From: Bdellovibrio sp.
GTDB lineage: Bacteria; Bdellovibrionota; Bdellovibrionia; Bdellovibrionales; Bdellovibrionaceae
Direction of reading: 5' to 3'
NCBI GenBank assembly: GCA_014376935.1
Contig: JACMQO010000121.1
Span: forward strand, 1 to 44,609
DNA: 44,609 nucleotides
Positions 12,514 to 44,609 of the stretch are shown piece by piece; within the stretch, counting starts at the first letter, position 1, and every line of letters begins with the position of its first letter. Made by a program: the position numbers and the translations under genes. The notes under the pieces were generated by a model. The model was not told the origin of the DNA. It did not search any database and saw only the letters and a list, made by a program, of their open reading frames with translations.

Positions 12514-12734
12514 AAGTTCTTCCTTGAGCTTAATGGGGCTACTTTTTCGACTAGCCGGTATCGTAACTGGTTTACGTTTACAGTTTAAATACCCTAGACC
12601 AGAAACTCAAATTTTCGCATAAAAACGCGGCTTAGGTCGGGACATAGTCCTATTTTGAGACATATATTTTTGTACATTCCGTTAAGAATTTCTCAATTTA
12701 TGTCGATAACCCTTACATGAAGGGGGAATTCAAA

Positions 12735-12935
12735 ATGAAATTCTTATCAAAAATGCGTGCGGGTCTTAGAAGAAATCTTCTTAAAAATCAAAGCGGACAA
12801 GGTGCAACCGAGTATATTCTGTTACTTGTTGTCGTTGTTGGTTTAGTTTTAGCTTTCAAAAAACCAATTATGGAAAAAATGAAGGGTAAAGTTGACTCAT
12901 TAGGTACTGCAATGGATCAGGTTACCCCAGATTAA
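12735..12935 (+). CDS. flp: Flp/Fap-type major pilin
   Basis: LLKNQSG|QGATEYILLLVVVVGLV has Flp motif with Glu+5/Tyr+6 after prepilin Gly; AAGGGGG SD before ATG 12735. Confidence 0.9.
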   Translation: MKFLSKMRAGLRRNLLKNQSGQGATEYILLLVVVVGLVLAFKKPIMEKMKGKVDSLGTAMDQVTPD

Positions 12936-12938
12936 TTT

Positions 12939-13148
12939 ATGACTATCGAATACGTACTCCTCATGATTATGGGCGGAGTTCTTTTTATGTCTGCTTTAAT
13001 CAAAGCTCCGAAAGTCGGCTTTGAAAAAGGTGGGGTACGTCTTGCTGCACGAGTAGAAACACAAATTGCTACGGGATCAGGATTTAAACCCTATCCGAAA
13101 AATGGAGCGTCTAATGAAGGGCGAGTTCCTTGGGTTGAAAAAGAATAA
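12939..13148 (+). CDS. Pilin-like small protein lacking a leader peptide
   Basis: MTIEYVLLMIMGGVLFMSALI resembles a mature Flp N-terminus; begins one codon after the flp stop in the same frame. Confidence 0.65.
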   Translation: MTIEYVLLMIMGGVLFMSALIKAPKVGFEKGGVRLAARVETQIATGSGFKPYPKNGASNEGRVPWVEKE

Positions 13149-13437
13149 TCCGTCTGGCTTACATCTTTTAAATCTGAATCAAAAAGGCCAATTTGCAATC
13201 GAAGCTGTCTTATTAATGACAGTGTTGGTCGGCTTTTTTCTAGCCGTTACAAATCAATTAAAATCAAAAAATGTTGTGGGTAATTTTGTGAGTAAGCCGA
13301 TGACCCGCGTGGGAAATATGGCTGGCTACGGGACTTGGCAAAGCGAATGCGTTGGCCAAGGTAAATCAAAAAAACAAACTTTAGGCAAATGCCACCCAAA
13401 CTCAATTCACCGCTCATTGAGTTCAAACCCAAAATGA
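13114..13437 (+). CDS. Tad pseudopilin-like protein
   Basis: NLNQKG|QFAIEAVLLMTVLVGFFLAV, prepilin-like G|XXXXE; ATG 13114 preceded by GGAG; the ORF-track start 13066 is inside the upstream ORF. Confidence 0.65.
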   Translation: MKGEFLGLKKNNPSGLHLLNLNQKGQFAIEAVLLMTVLVGFFLAVTNQLKSKNVVGNFVSKPMTRVGNMAGYGTWQSECVGQGKSKKQTLGKCHPNSIHRSLSSNPK

Positions 13438-14108
13438 AAAAAATAAATAACAAAATTAATTTAAATAACCAGTCTGGCTTTATCATCGCCGATTTTTTAT
13501 TTTCATTCGTTTTAGTTATCAGTTGCGGCATCATAATCTTCGCTTTAACTTTTTCATTAGCAACGGTTGAAATTTCTCAGTACATCGTTTGGTCAACCGC
13601 TAGAAATTATTCAGCCGGTAATACCAGCGAAGCCGATGCAAAAACACAAGCGACCCTTAAATTTAATAATTTAGCAGATCAATTTCCATTATTAACTGCA
13701 CGTGGTGCGACTTCATCACCTTGGTTTGTGTTAAACGGGCTGGCTATCGGCGACCTGGCTAATACCAGTGGTGGCGACAACGATCTTAGAACAAAATTAG
13801 CTTCTGACCGCGACAACAAAGACCAAGCCGGAGAATACCGTCAGCCTTGGACTGGTGCGAAAGCAGATCTTCAATTAAAATTACTTTCTGGAATTAAGGT
13901 TCCATTTTTAGGGCCGATCGCGGCTGATAAGACAGCATTCACATTCCCGGTGCGGGCTTTTATTATTCGTCATCCAAGCCAAGCAGAATGTTATGACTTT
14001 TATTCAGGCGCAAAAAGATTCTCGCAGGGGATTCAAAAATTAGAATCGCAGATGAACTCTTTAGGATCATCTGGCAGTTACGTTGTGATGGAAGATAACG
14101 GATGCTAA
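13434..14108 (+). CDS. Tad-locus pilin-like/TadE-F-type protein
   Basis: ATGA overlap with upstream stop; NNQSG|FIIADFLFSFVLVIS prepilin-like with Asp at +5. Confidence 0.6.
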   Translation: MKKINNKINLNNQSGFIIADFLFSFVLVISCGIIIFALTFSLATVEISQYIVWSTARNYSAGNTSEADAKTQATLKFNNLADQFPLLTARGATSSPWFVLNGLAIGDLANTSGGDNDLRTKLASDRDNKDQAGEYRQPWTGAKADLQLKLLSGIKVPFLGPIAADKTAFTFPVRAFIIRHPSQAECYDFYSGAKRFSQGIQKLESQMNSLGSSGSYVVMEDNGC

Positions 14109-14698
14109 TGGAAAAAAAGAACACCAAACCCACTCTAAAAAGAAAATCAAAAAAATCCGAAAAAGGAATGGCCATCATTGAAGCCATCCCCGCCTTATTT
14201 ATTATCGTATTAATTTTTAATTTTAGCCTTGGATTTTTCGGCGCGGTTCATTCAGGAATTTTAAATTCAATCGCGTCTTATAATTATTCGCTAGAAACCT
14301 TTCGCTTTAAATCAAACTTGGTCTACTTTCGCCCTGGCGGAGGCACGACCAATTACGCCGCATCGCTAAGCCGTGTGCATGGAACCATCCAAGATGGATC
14401 AGAAGATTCAGGCGACGGCACCATCGAAAAAACTTGGCCAGCCACAATGCGCGGAATTACATTTAATTACAAAAGTGGAACTGCAGGCCGTGACTTAGCA
14501 TCAGTTCAAGATAGAAAAGCCGGTAAAATTGCCGTTTCAGAAAGTGATCACAGTTACGCCGCGAATGCGACCGGTACAAAAATTTGGGCCGCTATTTCTA
14601 ACTACCAGCCCAAAGGCGGGGATTCAATACAAACGCCTAGAATTTGGATCAAGACCGTTTATGGAATCTGTTTAAATGCCGATTGTGAGAAGAAGTAA
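14102..14698 (+). CDS. TadE-like pseudopilin
   Basis: KSEKG|MAIIEAIPALFIIVLIFNFSLG; overlaps upstream stop. Confidence 0.7.
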   Translation: MLMEKKNTKPTLKRKSKKSEKGMAIIEAIPALFIIVLIFNFSLGFFGAVHSGILNSIASYNYSLETFRFKSNLVYFRPGGGTTNYAASLSRVHGTIQDGSEDSGDGTIEKTWPATMRGITFNYKSGTAGRDLASVQDRKAGKIAVSESDHSYAANATGTKIWAAISNYQPKGGDSIQTPRIWIKTVYGICLNADCEKK

Positions 14699-14722
14699 AA
14701 GTTTTTTTAACAAGGTAGGAAC

Positions 14723-15568
14723 ATGGGTCCCAACGAATCAAGAAATTTATGGATCTCTATAGGAGCCGGGGTTTTTGCCACGTTCATGCTATATTCGTAC
14801 TCTCAAGAAAAAAAAGCTGAACTTGAAAAATCTGTTGGAGAAAAAGTTCGTGTCGTTGTTGCTAAAGAAGATATTCGTGAAATGGATAGCATTTACGATA
14901 ACGTGATCGAATATAAAGAGCGTAACAAAGCTGACCTTGAACCCGATTCGTATTCAAGTATTCCTGATGTTGTAGGTGGCGTGGCCGCTATTCCGATTAA
15001 AAAAGGTCAAACAATCACAAAAAATAAAGTTTTAGAACCCGGTCCTGAAACAGGGATGGCAATTCAAGTGTCTCCGAATAAAAGAGCCGTTACGATTAAT
15101 ATTACAGACGAGCGTGCTAACGCAAAATTGATTCGACCGGGCGACCGCGTTGATATCATGGCCATCATTGATTCTGGAAAAGGGATCAATCAAAAACGTG
15201 AAGTCACATTATTGATGGAAGACGTCGTAATTTTAGCTACGGGCGTAAACGTGCACAATAATTTACCCCGAACGATTGAGAAAGATCCCTCTGGTAAAAA
15301 TTTAATTCAAACGACTTTAACGGGCGATACGAAGTACACGACCATTACGATCGAAGCTGACGTTATGCAGGCGCAAGATTTGATTTTTTTAACTTCTTCT
15401 AATTCAAGTAGTCTTTACTTCTTGCTTAGAAATCCGAATGATCGAAAAGTTATGCGACCGCGTCTACCGGCCTCTTCAGCCGACTCGATCCAAAACAGGA
15501 CAATAGTCCCGTCCAGTGGCTTTTCTGGTCAGCCTCAGCCAAACTTAATGAACGGCCCGGGTAGATAA
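14723..15568 (+). CDS. cpaB: Flp pilus assembly protein CpaB/RcpC (SAF domain)
   Basis: VRVVVAKEDIREMDSIYDNVIEYKE...IPIKKGQTITKNKV...AVTINITDERANAKLIRPGDRVDIMAIID. Confidence 0.9.
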   Translation: MGPNESRNLWISIGAGVFATFMLYSYSQEKKAELEKSVGEKVRVVVAKEDIREMDSIYDNVIEYKERNKADLEPDSYSSIPDVVGGVAAIPIKKGQTITKNKVLEPGPETGMAIQVSPNKRAVTINITDERANAKLIRPGDRVDIMAIIDSGKGINQKREVTLLMEDVVILATGVNVHNNLPRTIEKDPSGKNLIQTTLTGDTKYTTITIEADVMQAQDLIFLTSSNSSSLYFLLRNPNDRKVMRPRLPASSADSIQNRTIVPSSGFSGQPQPNLMNGPGR

Positions 15569-31066: not shown

Positions 31067-31195
31067 ATGGCAGAATTTAAAAGCTTCAAAGAATTCTATC
31101 CGTTTTATTTAAATGAACACCGTCACCCGATTTCTAGTTTGATGGGCGATTGGGTTATGTTTTTTGATATTCTGCGTGGGCAGATTCGATTTTAG
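31067..31195 (+). pseudogene. Internally deleted DUF962 (Mpo1-like) remnant, 42 aa
   Basis: MAEFKSFKEFYPFYLNEHRHP (family N-term) joined in frame to SSLMGDWVMFFDILRGQIRF (family C-term). Confidence 0.65.
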
Positions 31196-31199
31196 ATTT

Positions 31200-32648
31200 A
31201 TGACTGAGTTACAACTTTATACTATTTTAGCGGCTTTATTTTTGATTGTTACTGTCGCAAATGAAGCTCAATTTACTTTTCGTCTTTTAAAAAGAATTAG
31301 TAGATTTGACATACAGCTAGTTAGCTTTCTAACTGCAGTTCTGGTTCTACTACTAGCGGCAGCCTGGCCTGGACTTATTAGCGGTGATGATTTTTTTTTA
31401 ATTCGAAGTCTTACCTTTACTTCAGAAATAGCTGCATTTAGCGGGGGGCTTTATTCTGGTTTAATGAACTTACTTCTTTATTGTAAAGTTGAATGTTATT
31501 TTTTAAACTCTTTACAAATTTTTCTGTATGTTTCGCTTTTCATTAAAGCGTTGTACCAAATTAATTGTCTAATCGATATTCCAGAACGAAAAAGAACTAA
31601 ACTTGCTAAGTTTATCACTTTTCTTTTTTTCTTTTCGCCGTTAGCGATAAGCTTTACTCTTTTCCAAAATCGTGACGTTCTATTCTCGATACTTTTCTGC
31701 CACATTGTTTTTTATTTAATTATTAGCGTTAAAAACATTTCAAGCGAATTTTCAGTCAGAAAAAATTTAATTTACTTTTTAACACTTTGTTTGTTTGCTT
31801 TAAATCTAAGGCAAGATGCACTTTTAAACCTAGTTACGGTTCCCTTCCTACTGTACGCACTTCGCTTGATTTCGCTACGTGAAACATGGATAAAAACGCT
31901 GTTCTATTTGGTATTTTCGTTAGTTATAGCAAGTTCATCACTAAGTTCAAATTTGAATACTGAGATTTACCGCGTAACTGCTTTTATAAATCCTTTGTCG
32001 TATATCATAAATAAAAATGGCTTAAGCAGTTTAGCTCCAGATGAAATTATAAAAATAGAAAAAGTTTTTAGGACTGACTATCTGTTAAAATATTACTCGC
32101 CTTTAGAAATAGATCCCTTTCATAAAGGGGGCTCCAATATGTCGGCAACACGCGAAGATTACGATGTCTTTTTTCAAACCTGTTACGCGATATTTAATCG
32201 TCACAAATTGGATTATTTAACGAATCGGCTAAATGTATTCGCCCACGGTACGAATCTATTAAATACGAATTACCTAACCGGCGATGCTTTTAATACGGTC
32301 GCAAAAAGATTTCAGTTAGACGAAAAATATTTCCTAGCACCCTACAGAGACGTCATTATTGATTTAACCCTAGGCGTGACCCACCATATTGCGGTGGCAA
32401 GCGATTTCTTAAGAACTATCTTCTTTAGCTTAGCTCCCCATTTTTTAATTTTTTTGTTTTTACTATTTAATTTTAAAAGACTTTATTCAGAGCTAGTTTT
32501 AGCAACCTGGGTTTTCTTGCGACTGCCAATTCTATTTTTTTTAGAACCGGCCAGCATTTTTAAATATTACTACGCGATTTACTTTTGTTTTATTTTTCTG
32601 GCTATCCAGATATTTTTGAGCCACAAAGCAAAAAAAAACCCGCTATAA
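31200..32648 (+). CDS. Polytopic membrane protein, possibly GT-C-type glycosyltransferase
   Basis: Many hydrophobic segments; ATG 31200 preferred over track start 31164, which lies inside the DUF962 remnant. Confidence 0.5.
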   Translation: MTELQLYTILAALFLIVTVANEAQFTFRLLKRISRFDIQLVSFLTAVLVLLLAAAWPGLISGDDFFLIRSLTFTSEIAAFSGGLYSGLMNLLLYCKVECYFLNSLQIFLYVSLFIKALYQINCLIDIPERKRTKLAKFITFLFFFSPLAISFTLFQNRDVLFSILFCHIVFYLIISVKNISSEFSVRKNLIYFLTLCLFALNLRQDALLNLVTVPFLLYALRLISLRETWIKTLFYLVFSLVIASSSLSSNLNTEIYRVTAFINPLSYIINKNGLSSLAPDEIIKIEKVFRTDYLLKYYSPLEIDPFHKGGSNMSATREDYDVFFQTCYAIFNRHKLDYLTNRLNVFAHGTNLLNTNYLTGDAFNTVAKRFQLDEKYFLAPYRDVIIDLTLGVTHHIAVASDFLRTIFFSLAPHFLIFLFLLFNFKRLYSELVLATWVFLRLPILFFLEPASIFKYYYAIYFCFIFLAIQIFLSHKAKKNPL

Positions 32649-32673: not shown

Positions 32674-32749
32674 TGGCTCAAAAGGCAGGACTCGAACCTG
32701 CGACCAAGCGATTAACAGTCGCTTGCTCTACCAACTGAGCTACTTTTGA
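32674..32749 (-). tRNA. tRNA-Asn (anticodon GTT)
   Basis: TCAAAAG TA GCTC AGTTGGTAGAGC AAGCGA CTGTTAA TCGCTT ... GTTCGAGTC ... CTTTTGA G CCA cloverleaf; CCA encoded. Confidence 0.97.
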
Positions 32750-32910: not shown

Positions 32911-33847
32911 CAAAACGCAACTAAAGTTTATAAAAATAGCAGCTTTTTCGCTTTTTTTCTTTATTTTCATTCTTTTTTCAGAAGTTTTTTAGCTGTATAT
33001 GGTTTTGTTCAAGTTTGTCAATTTGTTAACCCCAGCCAAAAAATTAACTCTGAAGTAAAAAGAACCCGTGTCTATATTTATGTCGAACGAAACAGTGCTG
33101 ATTGTATATCTGCCAACATTAATGGCATAAGGCTCCTGGGAGGCCAGACTATCCCCTATACAAGTCAAAAATGTTTTAATAATACTTTTAACCGGAGGTT
33201 CAGTTGCGTCACCGGCTATACCAATGACCCATTTTTTTTTCAAGGCGTTGGAGATTCAACAGACATATTAAAATATTTTTAGGCAAGATCTCACAAGTAT
33301 CCGATTTTTTAAAAAAAGATGTTTCAATAGATTGAGACCTTTCCTACTGGAACTTTACAGTCAATCCAAAGCAAAAAAACAATTCTGTTTTAGAACTTCA
33401 ACAAAACTCTAATGATCTAAAAATTTCCCCAAAGTAGTAATCAATTATATTTTTACTACTCACGATAACCAAAGTAGATTAAACGAAATCCACAATAAAT
33501 TTAAAATTCTTATTAAAAAAAATACCCGAGAAATTAAATCCGCAGATTATGACCTGGTGATCCCTTCGCTTTTGTAAATCAATTTATTTATCCATAAAAT
33601 AAAAAATTTTAATCAGATCGTGGACCAACTAAAAACAAGAGACAAAAATTACGTCGACTGTGCTTCCGGATAAAGATCTAAAAATGATGATTTTCACGAC
33701 CCAGATGATCACGACTACGACCACTTTATGCTTGAAAGGCCATTCGGGAGCATGCTGTGTGGGTACAACAAGTCACTTTTGAACAGCTTACCTTTTTTAT
33801 GCACAGCCCCGCCACATCTTGCTACTGATTATGATAACGTAGAATAG
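32911..33847 (+). pseudogene. Decayed gene for a secreted protein with several stops/frameshifts
   Basis: Protein-like segments in changing frames, e.g. VYIYVERNSADCISANINGIRLLGGQTIPYTSQKCF..., DLSYWNFTVNPKQKNNSVLELQQNSNDLKISPK, NQSRLNEIHNKFKILIKKNTREIKSADYDLVIPSLL, DDFHDPDDHDYDHFMLERPFGSMLCGYNKSLLNSLPFLCTAPPHLATDYDNVE. Confidence 0.6.
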
Positions 33848-33920
33848 TACACACTCAGTTTAACTTGCATTCATTGACTTGAATGTTAAGTAACGTTCAT
33901 AACTATATTTGGGAGTTTCA

Positions 33921-35165
33921 TTGAGTAAAACCGCAATTTGCCCTTTGCCATGGATTTCGGCCAGTTTTAATACTGACGCTTCTTTTCGCGTTTGCTGTAA
34001 CACAAGTCATGGCGGCTTGATTAAAAAAAATGACAAAAAAGTCTATATGAATCAAGTTGAAAATTATTCTGACATTCATACCACCGATACGATCCAGACT
34101 TTAAAAAAAGATATGCTCTCAGGAGTACGATCAAAATTTTGCAGCGCCTGTTATGATGCCGAAGATGCCTCTGGTATTTCTATTAGGCAATACTACATTA
34201 AAAAATATTCAACCATTGTAGATCGTATCATCGCATCTTCAGATGTTAATCATGCTGAAAAAGTTAAGTTTCTAGATTTTTCCCTAACAAACAATTGTAA
34301 TTTAAAATGCAGAATGTGTACCCCTGGAGCCTCTTATCTACTTTCCCAAGATTTCGATAAGCTAGCTATGCCTTATGATAAAGAATATGCAAATAATGCT
34401 CATGCCTTATGGAGTTACGAAGGCGTTATTGAAAATTTAATCGCTAACGAAGGTGATGCACTTTCTGATATCTTATTCACGGGCGGAGAACCGCTTACAA
34501 ATCAAATCCATCTTAAAATATTAACTGGATTAGTCGAAAAAAACAGATCCCAAGAAATCTCGTTAACGTACCATACGAACTTGATGGTTCTGCCCGACCC
34601 GGTTTTGGATCTTTGGAAGAATTTTAAAAAAGTTTATGTTCATTTAAGTCTAGAGGGTCAAGGAAAACATAACGACTATATTCGTCACAATTCTAACTGG
34701 GACAAAATATTGCAAAATCTTCAAAAATTACTTTCAAAAAAAAATCAAATCGATTTGTGGATAGAAATTCATACGGTTTTTCAAGCTTATAATTTTTTAA
34801 TTATTCCTTCTTATTTAGAATTTTTAAAAACTTACGCATCCGAATTCCCGAGCTTTCCTCATTTTATATGGATTGATAATCCTTCTTTTCTTTCGGTAGA
34901 TTCGCTTCCGGCACAAGTGAAAAAGGAAGGCTTGGCGGCTATCCAAACGTACATCGATAGCAACAAGGAATTTTATGAATCCGCAGACTTCCACGAATTT
35001 AATTTGGAAAAAATACAAATTCTGCAAGGCTGTTTGAACAGAGTAAACCTAGAGCAATCTGATTCTTCGCAAAAAGAATTTGTCGACTACACAGTCAAGT
35101 TCGATAAACTGAGAAATCAAAATGTTTTGGACTACATTCCACAATTGGAAAAGGTTTTTAATTAA
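33921..35165 (+). CDS. N-terminal-twitch radical SAM protein (paralog 1), TTG start
   Basis: CPLPW...CC...FCSACYDAED, then CNLKCRMC and FTGGEP; GGGAG SD before TTG 33921. Confidence 0.9.
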   Translation: MSKTAICPLPWISASFNTDASFRVCCNTSHGGLIKKNDKKVYMNQVENYSDIHTTDTIQTLKKDMLSGVRSKFCSACYDAEDASGISIRQYYIKKYSTIVDRIIASSDVNHAEKVKFLDFSLTNNCNLKCRMCTPGASYLLSQDFDKLAMPYDKEYANNAHALWSYEGVIENLIANEGDALSDILFTGGEPLTNQIHLKILTGLVEKNRSQEISLTYHTNLMVLPDPVLDLWKNFKKVYVHLSLEGQGKHNDYIRHNSNWDKILQNLQKLLSKKNQIDLWIEIHTVFQAYNFLIIPSYLEFLKTYASEFPSFPHFIWIDNPSFLSVDSLPAQVKKEGLAAIQTYIDSNKEFYESADFHEFNLEKIQILQGCLNRVNLEQSDSSQKEFVDYTVKFDKLRNQNVLDYIPQLEKVFN

Positions 35166-35166
35166 T

Positions 35167-36567
35167 ATGGACGATGCAAAATATAATGAAATTATTGGTA
35201 GCCCTGGGTTTTGCGCTTACCCGTTCGTTCAAGTATCAACAGTACCAGCTGGATTTATGCGACCTTGTTGTTTTTTTACTGACATATTAAAGAACGATGA
35301 CGGAAGCAGTGCGAACGTTGATAAAAATAATTTTCAAACTATTTGGAATAATAAAAACTTCAAATCAATTCGTAACGACATGCTTTCTTCAACAAAAGTA
35401 AATGGCTGCCTTCAGTGTCACAAAGAGGATAGTTTTGGCGGCGACAGCATGAGAAAACGCAGCTTGCGCGAATGGACTTGGAGACAAGACTTTAAAGAAA
35501 TGGTTAAGCATGCTTTAAACAACGACGGAACTTTAGAATCAGGAATAAAATTTTTAGAATTAAAACCTGGAAATTTATGTAATTTGAAATGCCGCATGTG
35601 TAACCAATTTGACAGCAGTAAATATGCATCCGAGCTACAAGAAATTGGTGCAAAATTTAATAAAACGGCTAGCCAAGCCCGCCTTTTTGAAAACTATACG
35701 TTTGAATATGATTTCGATTTAGGAAAAATGGCCGATTGGACAAACAATAAACAAATATGGGAAAGTTTTCAAAATTTAGCTCCTCAAATTGAAATTTTAA
35801 GTTTCGCCGGTGGGGAACCAACTCTTATTGAAGACGTTTACAAATCTTTGAAATACTGTGTCGAAAAAGATCTAGCGAAGAATATAACAGTTTACTTCGC
35901 TTCTAACTTCACACAAAAAATGTCTAAATTTATTGATTTGGCTCAACACTTTAAACGGTTCGATTTTATCGCAAGCATAGATGGAACAGAGCAAACTCAA
36001 GAGTACATCCGCTTTCCTTCCAAATGGTCCGTAGTCGAAAGTAACTTTAGAGATGTAAATCGCGGCGCAGCTCACTATAAAAATGTAAATTTAATGATAA
36101 ATTTAACTTTAAATATTTATAATGTTCTTAATTTCATCGACCTACTTCATTGGCTTGAAGACGATGCTTTTCGACCTGGGTTAAAAGAAGATCCCTTTAA
36201 CTTAAATATTCTAATGTTTCCTAACTATCTATCTTTAGAACTTTTACCTAATAACCTTCGGCCAGCTGCGATTGAAAAAATTAATAATTATTTACAAACA
36301 TCGTGGATATGCAAAGAAAAACCTCATATCCATGCACGCTTAGTACAGCTTGTAGAAATGCTTGGTAAAAACGAATCCGTCACAGAAAATAATTTTAAAC
36401 TTTTAAAAGAATTTTGGATTTATACAAAAATATTGGACCAAAGCCGTAAACAAAAATTAAAAGATACTTTGCCATCCCTGTACATTGAAGTTGAAAAGCT
36501 GTTAACAGACAACAACTTCAATTTTGCAGAAAGTTATGAAAAATATCAGATTACAGAACAAATTTAA
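35167..36567 (+). CDS. N-terminal-twitch radical SAM protein (paralog 2)
   Basis: FCAYPF...RPCCFF...GCLQCHKED, LELKPGNLCNLKCRMCNQ, FAGGEP; ATG 35167. Confidence 0.92.
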   Translation: MDDAKYNEIIGSPGFCAYPFVQVSTVPAGFMRPCCFFTDILKNDDGSSANVDKNNFQTIWNNKNFKSIRNDMLSSTKVNGCLQCHKEDSFGGDSMRKRSLREWTWRQDFKEMVKHALNNDGTLESGIKFLELKPGNLCNLKCRMCNQFDSSKYASELQEIGAKFNKTASQARLFENYTFEYDFDLGKMADWTNNKQIWESFQNLAPQIEILSFAGGEPTLIEDVYKSLKYCVEKDLAKNITVYFASNFTQKMSKFIDLAQHFKRFDFIASIDGTEQTQEYIRFPSKWSVVESNFRDVNRGAAHYKNVNLMINLTLNIYNVLNFIDLLHWLEDDAFRPGLKEDPFNLNILMFPNYLSLELLPNNLRPAAIEKINNYLQTSWICKEKPHIHARLVQLVEMLGKNESVTENNFKLLKEFWIYTKILDQSRKQKLKDTLPSLYIEVEKLLTDNNFNFAESYEKYQITEQI

Positions 36568-36580
36568 GTTCTCGCGCAGA

Positions 36581-37015
36581 TTAGGGCTGAATTAATTTTT
36601 TTAATGATTCCGTTGATTTAAACGAAATCTCTTGTACCTTAAACAGGCCCTTTTCTTTATTCCATTCTAAAGTTATTTTTTTGCCCTCTGCAGAAATTGC
36701 CGTTAATAAAGGGAAAAACTGAACGACATCCTTGTCCACAATATCGACTGGCTCCATAACTATGGAACAAAACGTCGTAGCAATCTTTTGCGCGTCAGTG
36801 GTCAGCCAAGCGTTTTCTATTTTGGACGTAGAGTTTAATTCCCAGACAACATCTACAACATGATCAGGACACCAATTCATCCGCCGCTTATCGCTTACGA
36901 ACAGGCCATTTAAATCTTTGCGAAATGAGGATGATGAAAGAAAATTCATTACGCCAAAAACCAAGCTCAAAAAAATGGCCAGCACTAAAACTTTGAAAAT
37001 TAATTTTTTGTTCAC
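36581..37015 (-). CDS. Small N-terminally membrane-anchored hypothetical protein
   Basis: N-term TM MNKKLIFKVLVLAIFLSLVFGVMNFL; abuts the upstream radical SAM ORF. Confidence 0.65.
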   Translation of the reverse strand: MNKKLIFKVLVLAIFLSLVFGVMNFLSSSSFRKDLNGLFVSDKRRMNWCPDHVVDVVWELNSTSKIENAWLTTDAQKIATTFCSIVMEPVDIVDKDVVQFFPLLTAISAEGKKITLEWNKEKGLFKVQEISFKSTESLKKLIQP

Positions 37016-38295
37016 TAAAACATTTCTCGTAATTCTGGAAATACCTTAAATCGATCGGTGCCGCGGACTACGTCTAATGTACGGCAGTAGTCTTTAAAAG
37101 CTGCTGATTTCGATTCAAAACTTTCTGAATTCATAAACGATACAATTCCGTCGTATTTATCGAATGGCTCATTTAACTCTAATTTTAACTTTTCAAAACT
37201 TTCGGTGACCTTTTTTTTTATTTCATTGGGTAATATCTTCGGGTTTAAATATTCTGGCCAATGTACCAATCCCGGATGGACAAAGCTTTGAGTATTTGTA
37301 AATGCATTCTGTTTTTTGAAGTTTTTCGAACGCACCCAGCGGATAAAATCCGGCAGATGATGTACGTTTAACGCTTGCACGCTATATAGAAACCGCAACC
37401 ACGTATTGTCAGGCATATTATCGATAATTTGGAGGTTTTTTTCTATTACTTCCCATTTCGTAGGGTGACGAATGTAATGGGCAATGTCGCCCATACCATC
37501 AGCACTCGCGAAAAACTCGACGCGTTCAAATTTTTCCCAGTATGGAATCATATCGACTGGAAACTCCATCAAGTTTGTGTGGTACCGAACATGGATATGC
37601 TTAGCTTCACCAGACATCGCACATTCTTTTAAAAAGTTTAAATGTTGCTTAATTATCATAGGTTCGCCGCCGGCAATAATTATTTCTCGAATAAAAGGAA
37701 GAATTTTTTTAAGATTGGCCCAAAACTCTGCATTCTTGTACCATTCATAAGATTCAATTTTAATATCTCTTTTGTATTTCCATTCCGATTTTAATTCTGA
37801 ATCGGTTACTTCGTTTATAACTTTTTCAGATAATGAAGCCCATTTTGAGCTCTCGCGCGGCTGACACATTACGCACTGCAAATTACAAGTGTTTCCTAAC
37901 CGCAAGTCTAATGACAATACTTCTGCGTTAAGCTGTCCATCTTGTCCCGTCTGCTTCACCAAGCTATCGATAAAATCAAACCCAAGCTTGTCATGCCAGG
38001 CCTTATTTTCAATTAGGCGATGACTACGGTACCCGTTCGATTCTTCCTCGTAACAACGTCTACAAGCTGCAATTTTATTGCCTTGAAGCATTTTGTTTCT
38101 TACGTCTTTTATGTAGTCGCCATTCCAATAATCTTGAACCGTGCTTTTATTTAAATTAACACCTGATGTTTTCTCGGCAACACAACATAATTGCGTACTT
38201 CCATCAGTCAGGGAGGCAGCATGAATCCATGGTAGCACGCACCACGTTTCACTAAATCTTTTTCCGTAGTTATCAACTTCTTTGTTAGTATCCAT
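37015..38295 (-). CDS. N-terminal-twitch radical SAM protein (paralog 3)
   Basis: WCVLPWIH...QLCCVAEK...ACRRCYEEES, LDLRLGNTCNLQCVMCQP, IAGGEP. Confidence 0.93.
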   Translation of the reverse strand: MDTNKEVDNYGKRFSETWCVLPWIHAASLTDGSTQLCCVAEKTSGVNLNKSTVQDYWNGDYIKDVRNKMLQGNKIAACRRCYEEESNGYRSHRLIENKAWHDKLGFDFIDSLVKQTGQDGQLNAEVLSLDLRLGNTCNLQCVMCQPRESSKWASLSEKVINEVTDSELKSEWKYKRDIKIESYEWYKNAEFWANLKKILPFIREIIIAGGEPMIIKQHLNFLKECAMSGEAKHIHVRYHTNLMEFPVDMIPYWEKFERVEFFASADGMGDIAHYIRHPTKWEVIEKNLQIIDNMPDNTWLRFLYSVQALNVHHLPDFIRWVRSKNFKKQNAFTNTQSFVHPGLVHWPEYLNPKILPNEIKKKVTESFEKLKLELNEPFDKYDGIVSFMNSESFESKSAAFKDYCRTLDVVRGTDRFKVFPELREMF

Positions 38296-39595
38296 TTTCG
38301 TTTAACATCTCTCTTAATTTAGGAAAACTTTTTGCAAAACTTTGATTTCTTTTCTTATCTAATGTTTCCGTATAGATAAAAAAATCATTCAACTTTTCTT
38401 TATCGTCCATATCTAACGTTTGATCTAAACGATTTATTAAACTTTGAATGCTATTTTGAAGAAAAAAACTGTTATGCGTTTTTCGATCCAATGTCTTAGA
38501 TCGCAATTTCCAAACTAGCAGTCTGTCTTTAGCTTCTAATTTTATGCTTTTTGGCAAATGCACGAAATCTAAAAAATCGGGGTAAAAGCAGAATAAAAAG
38601 TCGATTAAAATATCTTTATCGTATCTTAAAATTAACGTTTCAACGTAATCTAATAATTTATCTAACGATAAAATGTTATAAATTTGAATCACTGGAGAAA
38701 ATCCAAGCCCAATATTACCGCTAGAGCTTTCAAGTAACTTTTCAATATTTTTCGAGGTTACTTCCCATTTACTATTGCCACGAATGTACTCGTTATCTTC
38801 AGCAAAGCCATCGACGCTGGCATTTATGCTTGTCCACTTAAAATATTTAAGCTGCTCGATGAAACGATCTTTCATTGTGGTAAAATTCAAATTGAAAAAT
38901 AATTCGATCTTTTCAGCGCAACCCATTTCTCTACATTTATCTAAAAACCTATAATTCGCCTCGATTAAAGTGGGCTCTCCACCAGTCATGTAAACTTTTT
39001 GCAAATGAGGAATATATTTTTCTATATCGTTCCAGAAATTATCTGACTCGTACCATTTGTCGACAGAGCCATTAACCATTCCGTACTTTTTCCAAAGTTC
39101 CGAATGGGCACCGTTATTCTCTTTATCTAATTCAATCCATTCTTTTTCAATCATGATACTGTTATATGGGTTACACATACGGCATTTTAAATTACACAAG
39201 TTTCCTAAACGTAAATCCAAATAAACAGGTAATTTATCAACGCGAAAATCGTTTTTAATTGAGTCAGTTACGCGACTCTCGAACTCTTTTTTTCCAAGTC
39301 GGTTAAGCCATTCTTCGTTGTGCGTTTGGCGGTAACTTCTTTTACCAATCTGTTCTTGGCTATAACACGTTTCACACCCGGTAATCGGTTTGCCCTCAAT
39401 CATTCGTTGCCGAATATTTTTCATGTATTTGGTATTCCACGCGCTAGCAAATGAGTCGGTTCCTAAATTTAAAGGACGACCTTCATCATTAACAACATGC
39501 GTTTTATCCGAGACGCAGCAAAAGTTAACCTTACCTGTCGGCGTCGTCATTTGGTGCATCCATGGGTAGATGCAAAAAGTTTTTGAATACTCCAC
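38285..39595 (-). CDS. N-terminal-twitch radical SAM protein (paralog 4)
   Basis: FCIYPWMH...NFCCVSDK...GCETCYSQEQ, LDLRLGNLCNLKCRMCNP, MTGGEP. Confidence 0.93.
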   Translation of the reverse strand: MEYSKTFCIYPWMHQMTTPTGKVNFCCVSDKTHVVNDEGRPLNLGTDSFASAWNTKYMKNIRQRMIEGKPITGCETCYSQEQIGKRSYRQTHNEEWLNRLGKKEFESRVTDSIKNDFRVDKLPVYLDLRLGNLCNLKCRMCNPYNSIMIEKEWIELDKENNGAHSELWKKYGMVNGSVDKWYESDNFWNDIEKYIPHLQKVYMTGGEPTLIEANYRFLDKCREMGCAEKIELFFNLNFTTMKDRFIEQLKYFKWTSINASVDGFAEDNEYIRGNSKWEVTSKNIEKLLESSSGNIGLGFSPVIQIYNILSLDKLLDYVETLILRYDKDILIDFLFCFYPDFLDFVHLPKSIKLEAKDRLLVWKLRSKTLDRKTHNSFFLQNSIQSLINRLDQTLDMDDKEKLNDFFIYTETLDKKRNQSFAKSFPKLREMLNENGY

Positions 39596-40332: not shown

Positions 40333-43300
40333 TTATAGCCCAAGTTTCTTTTTGATCGCGGCTAATTCCCTATCTTGTTGGTTAAGGCGAGCTTTGATTT
40401 CTGAATTCTCCTGGTTTAGTTTTTTATTTTGGGCCTCAAGGTCAGTGGCGCGGTTTCTGACAGAAGCGATTTCGCGCCCGCCGTTGCCGGCAAGACCAAT
40501 TCCTACAGCAACATTGACTCGCTTAAGGCCAGCGTCATCGGAAGATGCCCAGGCCGTCCCTACACCCTTCTTGGCTTGATCCATGGTCACATAATCTCGG
40601 TGGATCGCCGATGCTGTCCCATCGCCATTCGCAACTATTAAATCGCCCTCGCGAACCTTTCCTGTCACTAGAACTGGTAACTGCCCAGCGAATGCCACAA
40701 GGACAGGGTTCTGGAACTTGTTGTTGTCATTACCAACAAAGGCAGCCGTCGAAGGAGAAGACACAACAACATAACCACCTTTAAACAAAACAACAGAGCC
40801 CATTTGCGGAACCGATGAGCCCGGCCAATCAACCCACTCAGCAAAGTCAGCCCCTGAAGCATTGACTGTACCTGAGGCATTAATTGAACGACCAGTTCCA
40901 GTATCCGAGCCAACATAAAGAACCGAATTTGCTGCGCTATATGTTGTCGTAATTCCTCCGGCAGGATTTAATATTTTCAAGAAATTTGTTCCGCCACTTT
41001 CAGCAAGAAATGCTGCGGAACCAGCGGTTGTCTGGTTTACATCAAGCTTCGCATTTGGCGCTGTCGTCCCGATCCCGACGTTGCCGCCAACTATGGTCGC
41101 TGCGTACCCAGTTCCTGAATTTGAGACTACAAGCGCCGTGCCAGTGGCGCTAACATTGGTAATACTAAGATTGGCAGCGCTGCCACTCCCTGTGCCTGAG
41201 TATGAACCTTTGAAAAGGCTGCCCGTGAAAGCATTTGAACTTGTGGATGTCCAAAAAGGATTGCCGCTTGTCCAAGAGTTACCGCCGACATAGACTCCCG
41301 ATCCTGATGTGTTGCCTGACGACACGCTGAGGCCATTCGTTCCTAAGGCAATGGTACCGCTATTTAGCGTTACGCTTGTTCCTACACTTACGGTTGTACC
41401 TACAGTTATGTTTGTACCTACAGTTACGTTGCCGCCATTAGTCACTGAAAACTTCGAAACGCCGCCAACTTGCAAGTCCATAAGGTATTTACTGCCAGAA
41501 CCGACAGTTGTCTCTGTCGAGTTTAATAAGAGTCCGGTGTATCCGGCTGTGCCCGAAGCATTAACTGTCGGCCGAATTTTCACACCGTAATCGATACCCG
41601 CAGCCGATGTTAAACTTGACACTACGTCCAGCGTGGACCCAGGTGAATTTGTTCCGATACCGACGTTGCCGCCGTTTAAGACGGTCAGTTTTGCGGTGTC
41701 GTTAGTGGTTGTGCTACCTGTAGAAAGATAAATATTACCTGTCGAATTTTGTGTTGTTAAAATTAAATTTCCATTTGAAGAAGCACCTTGGGTTCTAACG
41801 ACTGCATCACCGGCCAGTGCAATATTTGAAAAATATCCTGAGCCTGTGGCAAGTCCAAAATCCAAACTATAGGTGCCATTTGAGATTGAATTTAGTGGCC
41901 CGCTTGCGCCAATCACTTTTATGCCGTCGGCAAGCGAAGTGACATTGACCTGAAGCTTTGAGGCTGGGGCAGCCGTGCCGATCCCGACGTTTCCATTATT
42001 CAGAATACGCATGGCTTCCGTCGCCCCGTTATTACCAACTTGAAAAATATGATCTGCACCCGTCGCACCAACAGCTGTTGTTGTTTTATGTATCAAAGAC
42101 GATGTCGTTCCGGTACCACCAATAATCAGTGGCGATGTAATATTTGTCGTAAATGTTGGTGCCGTCCCAAACACAGCAACGCCTGTTCCTGTTTCATCAC
42201 TTAAAACTCCAGCCAACTGCGCCGAAGTTGTTGCTGCGAATTGCGATAACGGATTGCTTGTTAGCGCATTGCCCGTCGGTATTGAGGTATTACAAATAAT
42301 ATTAGCCCCAGTTCCATCACCGGTACACATCACATTCGCATTAATCCCTGCTGTTCCTATCGTTGGAATTAAACCACTTAAATTACCGGTGTTCAATACC
42401 GCTGCGGTACCAAGTCCTAAGTTACTTCTTGCTGCGGCCGCTGTTGTAGCACCGGTTCCACCGTACAATACTGGAATTGCAGTTGCATTCCATGTACCTG
42501 TAGTCACTGTGCCTAATGTCGTGATACTTGATGAACCCGCTGCCGGAGCACGCGATGCATCTGTCGCATGCACGTGATCAGCACGAGCAAATGTCGTTCC
42601 GGTACCAACCGCCGCTGTGCCATCCATCACTGGAGTCGTCGAAGACGCTTGAGCTAACACGAACTCTGTTGTGGCTAACTGAGTTGTATTTGTATTAACG
42701 GCCGCTGTCGGCGCTAATGGAACTCCGGTAAAAGTTGGAGACACAGAAAACACGACCGAACCTGTTCCTGTTTCATCACTTAAAACTCCAGCCAATTGCG
42801 CCGAAGTTGTTGCTGCGAATTGCGCTAATGTACCAGCTGTCGAAGCATTTCCGGTTGCTGCCGCTACCCAACTTAATGTACCTGAACTGTCACTTTGCAA
42901 AATCATATTTGAACCCGGAGCCACTGCTGGCCAAGTGTACGTCGCTGAACCCGCCGCAGCTGGTACCGCGAACTTCACTGATCCCGAAGTGGATCCTGAA
43001 AGCGCCATAGTTCCCTTAATATCTAAAAGCGAGCTCGGGCTTGTCGTTCCGATACCGACATTACCCGAAGATTTAATCACCATGGCAGAGTGGGCAGCAA
43101 TAGTAGGCATATTCGTGCTGTTAAAATTATTATTTAAGAAGTACATATCGCCGCGACCATAGCTGGCCGTTCGCTGAAAAATGATACCGGCTTTTGCGCT
43201 TGTTGAATCTCCGACATTGAACAGAATTCCGGCAGTCGGCGTATTTGTTTCCGTATTGTTGTTTTGAAGATTCAAAATCCAATTTTCGGCCGCTGTGTTT

Positions 43301-44609
43301 AGATCACTTTCGGAATGGAGCTTATATAGAGGTGCTATTGTCCCGATACCAACTTTACCGTTGGCTAATACCGTCAACCCAGAACCAGCCGTCGAATTCG
43401 ATTGAATTCGCGCAACCATTCCGCTTGTTGAAGCCCCCGTGTTAGCCACATTTAAAAGTCCATTCGTTGAATTCAACGAAGCACTGGATGTCGTCAAGTT
43501 CAATAAACTTCCAGTCGTTAAAGCATTTGCCGAAAGCGACAACGGACTTTGCGTCGTATCCGTCGACCAATTCCATACCTGCGCATTCAATAAATTATCT
43601 ATTGTATTCGTGGCTGTTGCCGCCGTAAGACCAGAAAGAGATCCCGCAATCGTGGCTCCCCAGCTGACGTTCGTCCCATCGGTCGTTAAAAATTTTCCAG
43701 AGTTTGAAGCTTGTGTGGGAAGAATATTATTCGCAGCACCCGCTTGCGCTGTGGCACCCGTTCCACCGTTTGCTAACGGTAACGTTCCGGTAATTTGACC
43801 AACAGGAAGTGAAATATTCGTACACGATAAATTATCTGTTGCCGATGTCCAAGTTAATGTTTGATTCGAAGTACAACCCGTCGACCCGCTACCGAAAGTC
43901 GCTGCGCCAGTAACTGTCGAACGTAAATCAAACATAGATAAATTATTATTCACCCAGTTTGTTCCGTCATATCTTAAAACTTGCCCTGTAGAATAAGTCA
44001 CAGGCGAAACTGTTTTTCCTTTAATTTTATCAACACTAGTTGCAACTGTTCCTGCTGTTGAACTTACATCGCCGGTCATGGCCGGAAATCTTGCTGCTGG
44101 AACTGTTCCTGACGATAAGTTAGTTGCATTCAAACTTGATCCATCAATTTTACTATTAAATGTTGTCCAGTCTGCCGAACTTAAATATCCGTTGACTGAA
44201 GATGTTGCCACTGCGATATCAACTGTTGGAGCTACCGCTGTGCCACCAATATTTATCGGGTTTCCAGCTGTTCCTGCCGCTGTCACCGAAGTCACTGTTC
44301 CGCCACTACCTGTCGCTGCGATTTGTATTCCGCCCGCAGAATGAGTCACGGTAACACCCGCGCCCGCAGTGATTGATTTATTCTCTAAAACTGCACCCGC
44401 ATTATCGTAACCAATGATTTGATTTGAAGTACCAATCACTGGTGGCAAAGTAAAAGTATAATTAGTAATCCCTGCATTCGGAGCTTTCAATAAAACGCGA
44501 TTCGTATTCGTAGTGTCATATAAATAATTATTCTGAGTTGAAACATTTGTTGAAGATACAGAAGTCGTCGCAATATTTCCTGAAGCATCACGTTTCACAA
44601 TTGTCGAAG
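40333..44609 (-). CDS. Large repetitive tail-fibre-like adhesin (partial; N-terminus outside window)
   Basis: Frame stays open to the window edge (TIVKRDASGNIAT), repeated GNVGIGTxxP motifs, C-terminal GADFAEWVDWPG domain and coiled-coil LEAQNKKLNQENSEIKARL. Confidence 0.9.
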   Translation of the reverse strand, partial: STIVKRDASGNIATTSVSSTNVSTQNNYLYDTTNTNRVLLKAPNAGITNYTFTLPPVIGTSNQIIGYDNAGAVLENKSITAGAGVTVTHSAGGIQIAATGSGGTVTSVTAAGTAGNPINIGGTAVAPTVDIAVATSSVNGYLSSADWTTFNSKIDGSSLNATNLSSGTVPAARFPAMTGDVSSTAGTVATSVDKIKGKTVSPVTYSTGQVLRYDGTNWVNNNLSMFDLRSTVTGAATFGSGSTGCTSNQTLTWTSATDNLSCTNISLPVGQITGTLPLANGGTGATAQAGAANNILPTQASNSGKFLTTDGTNVSWGATIAGSLSGLTAATATNTIDNLLNAQVWNWSTDTTQSPLSLSANALTTGSLLNLTTSSASLNSTNGLLNVANTGASTSGMVARIQSNSTAGSGLTVLANGKVGIGTIAPLYKLHSESDLNTAAENWILNLQNNNTETNTPTAGILFNVGDSTSAKAGIIFQRTASYGRGDMYFLNNNFNSTNMPTIAAHSAMVIKSSGNVGIGTTSPSSLLDIKGTMALSGSTSGSVKFAVPAAAGSATYTWPAVAPGSNMILQSDSSGTLSWVAAATGNASTAGTLAQFAATTSAQLAGVLSDETGTGSVVFSVSPTFTGVPLAPTAAVNTNTTQLATTEFVLAQASSTTPVMDGTAAVGTGTTFARADHVHATDASRAPAAGSSSITTLGTVTTGTWNATAIPVLYGGTGATTAAAARSNLGLGTAAVLNTGNLSGLIPTIGTAGINANVMCTGDGTGANIICNTSIPTGNALTSNPLSQFAATTSAQLAGVLSDETGTGVAVFGTAPTFTTNITSPLIIGGTGTTSSLIHKTTTAVGATGADHIFQVGNNGATEAMRILNNGNVGIGTAAPASKLQVNVTSLADGIKVIGASGPLNSISNGTYSLDFGLATGSGYFSNIALAGDAVVRTQGASSNGNLILTTQNSTGNIYLSTGSTTTNDTAKLTVLNGGNVGIGTNSPGSTLDVVSSLTSAAGIDYGVKIRPTVNASGTAGYTGLLLNSTETTVGSGSKYLMDLQVGGVSKFSVTNGGNVTVGTNITVGTTVSVGTSVTLNSGTIALGTNGLSVSSGNTSGSGVYVGGNSWTSGNPFWTSTSSNAFTGSLFKGSYSGTGSGSAANLSITNVSATGTALVVSNSGTGYAATIVGGNVGIGTTAPNAKLDVNQTTAGSAAFLAESGGTNFLKILNPAGGITTTYSAANSVLYVGSDTGTGRSINASGTVNASGADFAEWVDWPGSSVPQMGSVVLFKGGYVVVSSPSTAAFVGNDNNKFQNPVLVAFAGQLPVLVTGKVREGDLIVANGDGTASAIHRDYVTMDQAKKGVGTAWASSDDAGLKRVNVAVGIGLAGNGGREIASVRNRATDLEAQNKKLNQENSEIKARLNQQDRELAAIKKKLGL
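42182..42245. repeat. Direct repeat copy 1 (64 bp) within the fibre gene
   Basis: 63/64 identical to 42761-42824; encodes QFAATTSAQLAGVLSDETGTG. Confidence 0.95.
42761..42824. repeat. Direct repeat copy 2 (64 bp) within the fibre gene
   Basis: 63/64 identical to 42182-42245. Confidence 0.95.

Follow-up and report, generated by a model that had tools for sequence, protein, structure and literature searches.

We analysed a 44,609-nucleotide stretch of a Bdellovibrio sp. contig (hereafter the window) that encodes four radical SAM paralogs of the N_Twi_rSAM family. P1 (33909..35165) and P2 (35122..36567) are on the forward strand, and P4 (37015..38295) and P5 (38285..39595) are on the reverse strand. 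An alternative TTG start at 33921 is equally good for P1, and the likely start of P2 is the ATG at 35167. As the initial annotation had described, the four open reading frames are intact, form two convergent (tail-to-tail) pairs, and share a motif of the form CPLPW, CAYPF, CVLPW or CIYPW, then CC, CxxC, CNL[KQ]C[RV]MC and GGEP. P2, P4 and P5 are 23-27% identical to P1.

Between the two pairs is a gene for a 144-aa membrane-anchored protein (P0003; 36581..37015, reverse strand). On the forward strand, ~0.14 kb before P1, we found a pseudogene of a protein family that we call D316; the profile match covers 33467..33772, the decayed frame is visible from ~33438 to 33860, and two TAA stops are in frame. 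Further upstream, the gene for a 494-aa membrane protein (31164..32648, forward strand) may be part of an inserted block. Its single homologue across 13 other genomes of the genus lies within an N_Twi_rSAM cluster (in G044), and its membership of the block is tentative because a Pfam scan gave no match. A tRNA-Asn gene (32674-32749), a possible integration point, separates the gene for this membrane protein from the D316 remnant; it lies at the border of the inserted block. Upstream of P5, a very long repetitive open reading frame (40333-44598), tail-fibre- or adhesin-like by eye, ends the contig.

Family assignment, cysteine ligands and fold

The proposed N_Twi_rSAM membership was borne out by HMM search. 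With the NCBIfam model NF033640 (N_Twi_rSAM, twitch domain-containing radical SAM protein; curated cut-off 170 bits), P1, P2, P4 and P5 score 306, 336, 373 and 362 bits, respectively (E = 4e-91 to 1e-111), and the matches extend from model positions 1-3 to 394-398 of 398. The genome has 18 Radical_SAM matches, and only these four proteins exceed the NF033640 cut-off. Since the sole four members encoded in the genome fall in one spot, within 5.7 kb, their clustering is not due to chance.

The auxiliary Cys domain had been placed ahead of the radical SAM core in the initial annotation, and this order holds. Five N-terminal cysteines (C8, C26, C27, C74 and C77 in P5 numbering) are invariant in 58 aligned relatives, as are the core cysteines C134/C138/C141 and the GGE motif. 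Pfam SPASM matches above its cut-off at the N-terminus of P2, P4 and P5 (P1 was not matched), and thus the auxiliary domain precedes the core. Based on their family, the four enzymes probably cleave SAM and bind two Fe-S clusters each.

The AlphaFold2 model of P5 is confident (pLDDT 93.1, pTM 0.90). Fold comparison with the PDB returned partial matches only (SkfB, SuiB, viperin, anSME, MoaA, BlsE and DesII; TM on query <=0.39), which cover chiefly the common radical SAM core, and no solved full-length relative was found there. Viral protein models match P5 over its full length, with TM up to 0.80. The best partial matches are to the SPASM/twitch peptide maturases SkfB, SuiB and anSME, which likewise combine a radical SAM core with an auxiliary Fe-S domain; the window enzymes, however, have the auxiliary domain at the N-terminus and have no linked precursor. 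The core also partially matches BlsE and DesII, which act on sugar nucleotides, but these do not match the window enzymes over their full length.

A linked RiPP precursor was considered and rejected, because the operon in a relative (G050, below) leaves no room for one and the only small linked open reading frame is a resident gene. The best peptide-maturase match of P1 reaches 38.8 bits against a curated cut-off of 425. Viperin-type defence was likewise rejected. Likeness to the viperin-family antiviral radical SAM proteins amounts to a weak, core-only match (18-31 bits with PADLOC pVip), and the window enzymes carry an extra N-terminal cluster domain. With the NCBIfam viperin model, P2 and P4 score 25 and 15 bits, far below the cut-off of 180, and P1 and P5 are absent among the matches listed.

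Two enzyme pairs in other bacterial genomes

Each of the four enzymes has a one-to-one orthologue in the genome G050 (60-71% identity; support 100 in a tree of Bdellovibrionaceae members). The G050 genes form a gap-free operon on one strand, P5-P4-P1-P2, with overlaps or gaps of <=3 bases, located between atpC and mfd (both named by eye), a different chromosomal site from that of the quartet in the window. A search of named genomes added further P5 orthologues in Bdellovibrionota (38-56% identical), and an enlarged tree resolved four separate orthologous groups that all occur jointly in G000, G050, G068, G069 and G070. The P2 group comprises five genomes (support 100), and the P1 group includes G050, G068, G069, G070 and others. 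At E <= 1e-40, G068, G069 and G070 have exactly four members, arranged as two adjacent pairs on separate contigs (P1 of G068, P2 of G069 and P5 of G070 were placed from search coordinates, because gene calling by simple ORF detection is incomplete at some loci).

Other genomes encode only part of the set: P5 and P4 without P1-P2 in G066, G067 and G073, P1 and P2 without P5-P4 in G075 and G076, and P4 with P1 and a P5-type gene in G071 and G072. Because P5-P4 and P1-P2 are each found both alone and together, they constitute two units that can be separated but frequently move together. The convergent arrangement is seen in the window only. N_Twi_rSAM proteins are present in 16 of 66 family genomes, and the quartet is missing from most of the genus. 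In G044, G050, G051 and G054 (loci L043, L058, L061 and L063), N_Twi_rSAM genes are found between atpC and mfd, an interval that looks like a hot spot for insertion.

These comparisons uphold the earlier view that the paralogs diverged long ago and act in concert. They fall into four distinct orthologous groups whose genes share locations in relatives, the opposite of the never-co-located pattern named beforehand as a counter-indication. The conserved gap-free adjacency favours successive steps, rather than different targets, for P1, P2, P4 and P5.

The 144-aa protein, which the initial annotation had put forward as a partner or substrate of the enzymes, was rejected in both roles. Its homologues occur in 39 of the 66 family genomes, 29 of which lack any N_Twi_rSAM, and the presence of the two is not associated (Fisher p = 1 across the 66 genomes). 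Homologues in G046 and G047 are downstream of groEL-groES-trypsin, as in the window, and G046 even has the gene orientations of the window, with none of the four enzyme genes between or beside them. A different N_Twi gene adjoins the homologue in G032, near groEL. We judge the 144-aa gene to be a resident family gene flanked by the enzymes, and a bystander outside the module.

Viral loci, D316 and neighbouring genes

A scan of viral contigs uncovered P5 relatives up to 44% identical to P5. Using profiles of the four groups, we identified a P5 orthologue in 28 viral loci (20 after near-duplicate removal). P4 is within two genes of P5 in 13 of the 20 non-redundant loci and farther off in one, and two loci (L227 and L228) encode an additional P2-type gene. 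Phage genes in the P5-bearing loci include those for a tail sheath (L241) and a phage exonuclease (L224). Isolated phage genomes yielded distant relatives only (22-27% identity); in Vibrio phage K566, distant family members are encoded a few kb from a gene annotated as PagP. In pelagimyophages, radical SAM cassettes set apart otherwise similar hypervariable regions that also bear glycosyltransferases (PMC7029224). The likeness is that radical SAM genes are variable phage cargo in glycosyltransferase-rich regions, but N_Twi_rSAM, the P5-P4 pair and a function go unnamed in the available portion of that account.

Recurrent neighbours in 19 viral P5-P4 loci are D316 (15 loci), a PF05118 hydroxylase (13), and the families f1 and f2 (10 each), and GT1 and GT7 domains also occur. 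PF05118 also covers the lipid A hydroxylase LpxO, and it would therefore fit an envelope substrate. The AlphaFold2 model of f1 (pLDDT 88), a protein with an invariant D in a DxDN-like motif, gives weak fold matches (E about 1e-3), nearly all of them to GT-A glycosyltransferases or sugar nucleotidyltransferases. A single-sequence query, hence a weak one, did not find f1 in G000, G050, G044, G068, G069 or G070, and sequence-profile searches of the PDB gave no lead for either f1 or D316.

D316 is a protein of ~316 aa for which we found no earlier description in the literature searched, and the member scanned has no Pfam match. The residues N75, H97, E101, N128, H132 and E135 are kept in D316 proteins (L235:3677-4627 and alignment A8) and look like a metal site. 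In this genome the profile has a single match (E = 1.9e-7), the remnant before P1, which scores 32.5 bits against maxima of 4.8 in 200 codon shuffles and 5.4 in other window segments. The remnant retains N94, H97, F100, N128 and H132, and E101 and E135 read K. The gene is not confined to P5-P4 loci: within about 6 kb after its P1-P2 pair, G075 encodes a PF05118-type hydroxylase, f2 and D316. A search of G050, G068, G069 and G070 did not find D316, and it is thus a frequent rather than an obligatory companion. We consider it a better candidate partner than the 144-aa protein.

Other neighbours bear on the substrate. In L096, a GT2 gene is directly upstream of P4 and overlaps its start, and L097 has a gene of the same size in the same place. 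Other N_Twi_rSAM clusters include GDSL, carbamoyltransferase-like and sugar nucleotidyltransferase-like genes (the last two largely by eye). Among 280 near and 140 distant neighbours of family members, GT2 genes number 13 and 2, respectively, a modest enrichment that is not significant (p = 0.16), and other radical SAM genes are enriched nearby (p = 0.02). No glycan gene was shown to belong to the window cluster itself.

Some loci encode a second radical SAM family, rSAM-B, with its own N-terminal Cys domain (WxxWxCxAG, then ATC, then CxxxWCMCG) and PF04055 as its only Pfam match. It adjoins P4/P5 or P2 orthologues (L199:3067-4107, L200:5234-6244, L204:9394-10095 and L099:12672-13829); in this genome it has a weak, core-only match and nothing more. 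L216 encodes an 831-aa protein (12629-15124) in which a repeat resembling KHWANLHLWKYSPVRL occurs many times; its gene is upstream of P4-P5 and a glycosyltransferase-like gene. In G017 and G040, N_Twi_rSAM genes adjoin flagellin-like genes, so named by eye (L057:4510-9329 and L065:7469-11472).

Proposed function and rival explanations

Our preferred reading, which we hold tentatively and at somewhat less than even probability, is the consecutive radical tailoring of one product, likeliest the sugar or lipid part of a surface glycoconjugate, by a mobile module of two two-gene units, P5-P4 and P1-P2. The core cluster (C134/C138/C141 in P5) is predicted to cleave SAM, and the resulting 5'-deoxyadenosyl radical to abstract a hydrogen from the substrate; the N-terminal twitch-type cluster, with ligands among the five invariant cysteines, is predicted to relay an electron or hold the substrate. 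Each paralog would perform one step, and the members of a pair would act one after the other, so that one product, or its intermediates, would undergo several radical steps. This division of labour, with sequential action within pairs, is suggested by the adjacency of the genes and their lack of spacing. A glycan or glycolipid substrate is weakly suggested by the GT2 gene beside P4 in L096, the L097 gene, the viral neighbourhoods and the other family clusters. Counting against this reading are the GT2 tally, which is not significant, the absence of a glycan gene tied to the window cluster, the failure to find f1 in the quartet genomes searched or D316 in G050, G068, G069 and G070, and the presence of peptide maturases among the closest solved folds, partial though those matches are. 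The product would be assembled with glycosyltransferases encoded elsewhere in this genome, and the module may pass between bacteria and phages. In the window, it would have been inserted around the resident gene and arranged as convergent pairs, with loss of the D316 gene.

The enzymes might instead act in the manner of SPASM/twitch peptide maturases, on a protein or peptide encoded elsewhere (e.g., a flagellar, surface or virion protein); different residues or cross-links would then be introduced by different paralogs. We regard this as somewhat unlikely, but as a serious rival. It would accord with the presence of SkfB, SuiB and anSME, whose substrates are peptides or proteins, among the best partial PDB matches, but those matches involve mainly the common radical SAM core and do not exceed the low TM on query given above. 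The flagellin-like genes (by eye) beside two family loci, and the recurrence in viral P5-P4 loci of PF05118, which is named for aspartyl/asparaginyl beta-hydroxylases, would also suit a protein substrate. Against it, there is no linked precursor, the gaps in the G050 operon are of <=3 bases, and the one linked candidate, the 144-aa protein, fails.

It is also possible, but in our view quite unlikely, that the two units act on unrelated substrates and that their meeting in one place is incidental. Each unit does occur alone (P5-P4 in three genomes and P1-P2 in two), and the pairs are on separate contigs in three genomes. However, all four groups meet in five genomes, and three of these have only the four members at E <= 1e-40; the units form one operon in G050 and one locus in the window, at different chromosomal sites, and D316 accompanies both P5-P4 and P1-P2. 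We give still less credence to the idea that an old phage-related insertion brought in the four genes as cargo, and that they now serve no function in the host and are heading for decay. In its favour, P5-P4 is common in viral contigs, D316 is a pseudogene in the window and the quartet is missing from most of the genus; yet the four enzymes retain undamaged frames and every cluster ligand next to a broken D316, and the orthologues are intact, in conserved pairs, in four other bacterial genomes.

For N_Twi_rSAM, which is widespread among radical SAM proteins, we found no described function and no solved full-length relative; the literature searched for the former omits most subscription papers. 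The family name is already known, but the NF033640 model is silent on the conserved quartet, the viral P5-P4 pair and the D316 partner, and these three are undescribed in the literature searched, which is mostly without subscription papers. In a broader and rather unlikely proposal, one mobile radical SAM assembly line would be common to bacteria and tailed phages. It would comprise P5-P4, in many cases accompanied by P1-P2, D316, the PF05118 hydroxylase, f2 and GT-A-like enzymes, and would give a surface glycan or glycolipid a hitherto undescribed modification in several steps, which might alter phage receptors or predator-prey recognition.

The four orthologous groups, in two pairs, make up a defined enzyme set that is conserved in nature and could be expressed together. 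Paralogs that had been only loosely grouped now form a pathway open to testing, and D316 is a new candidate partner for N_Twi_rSAM. The phage link ties the family to envelope or virion biology. A matched set in distant relatives, with half of the set adjacent in viral contigs, points towards chemical tailoring by a mobile pathway of several steps, the product being perhaps a cell-surface sugar or glycolipid.
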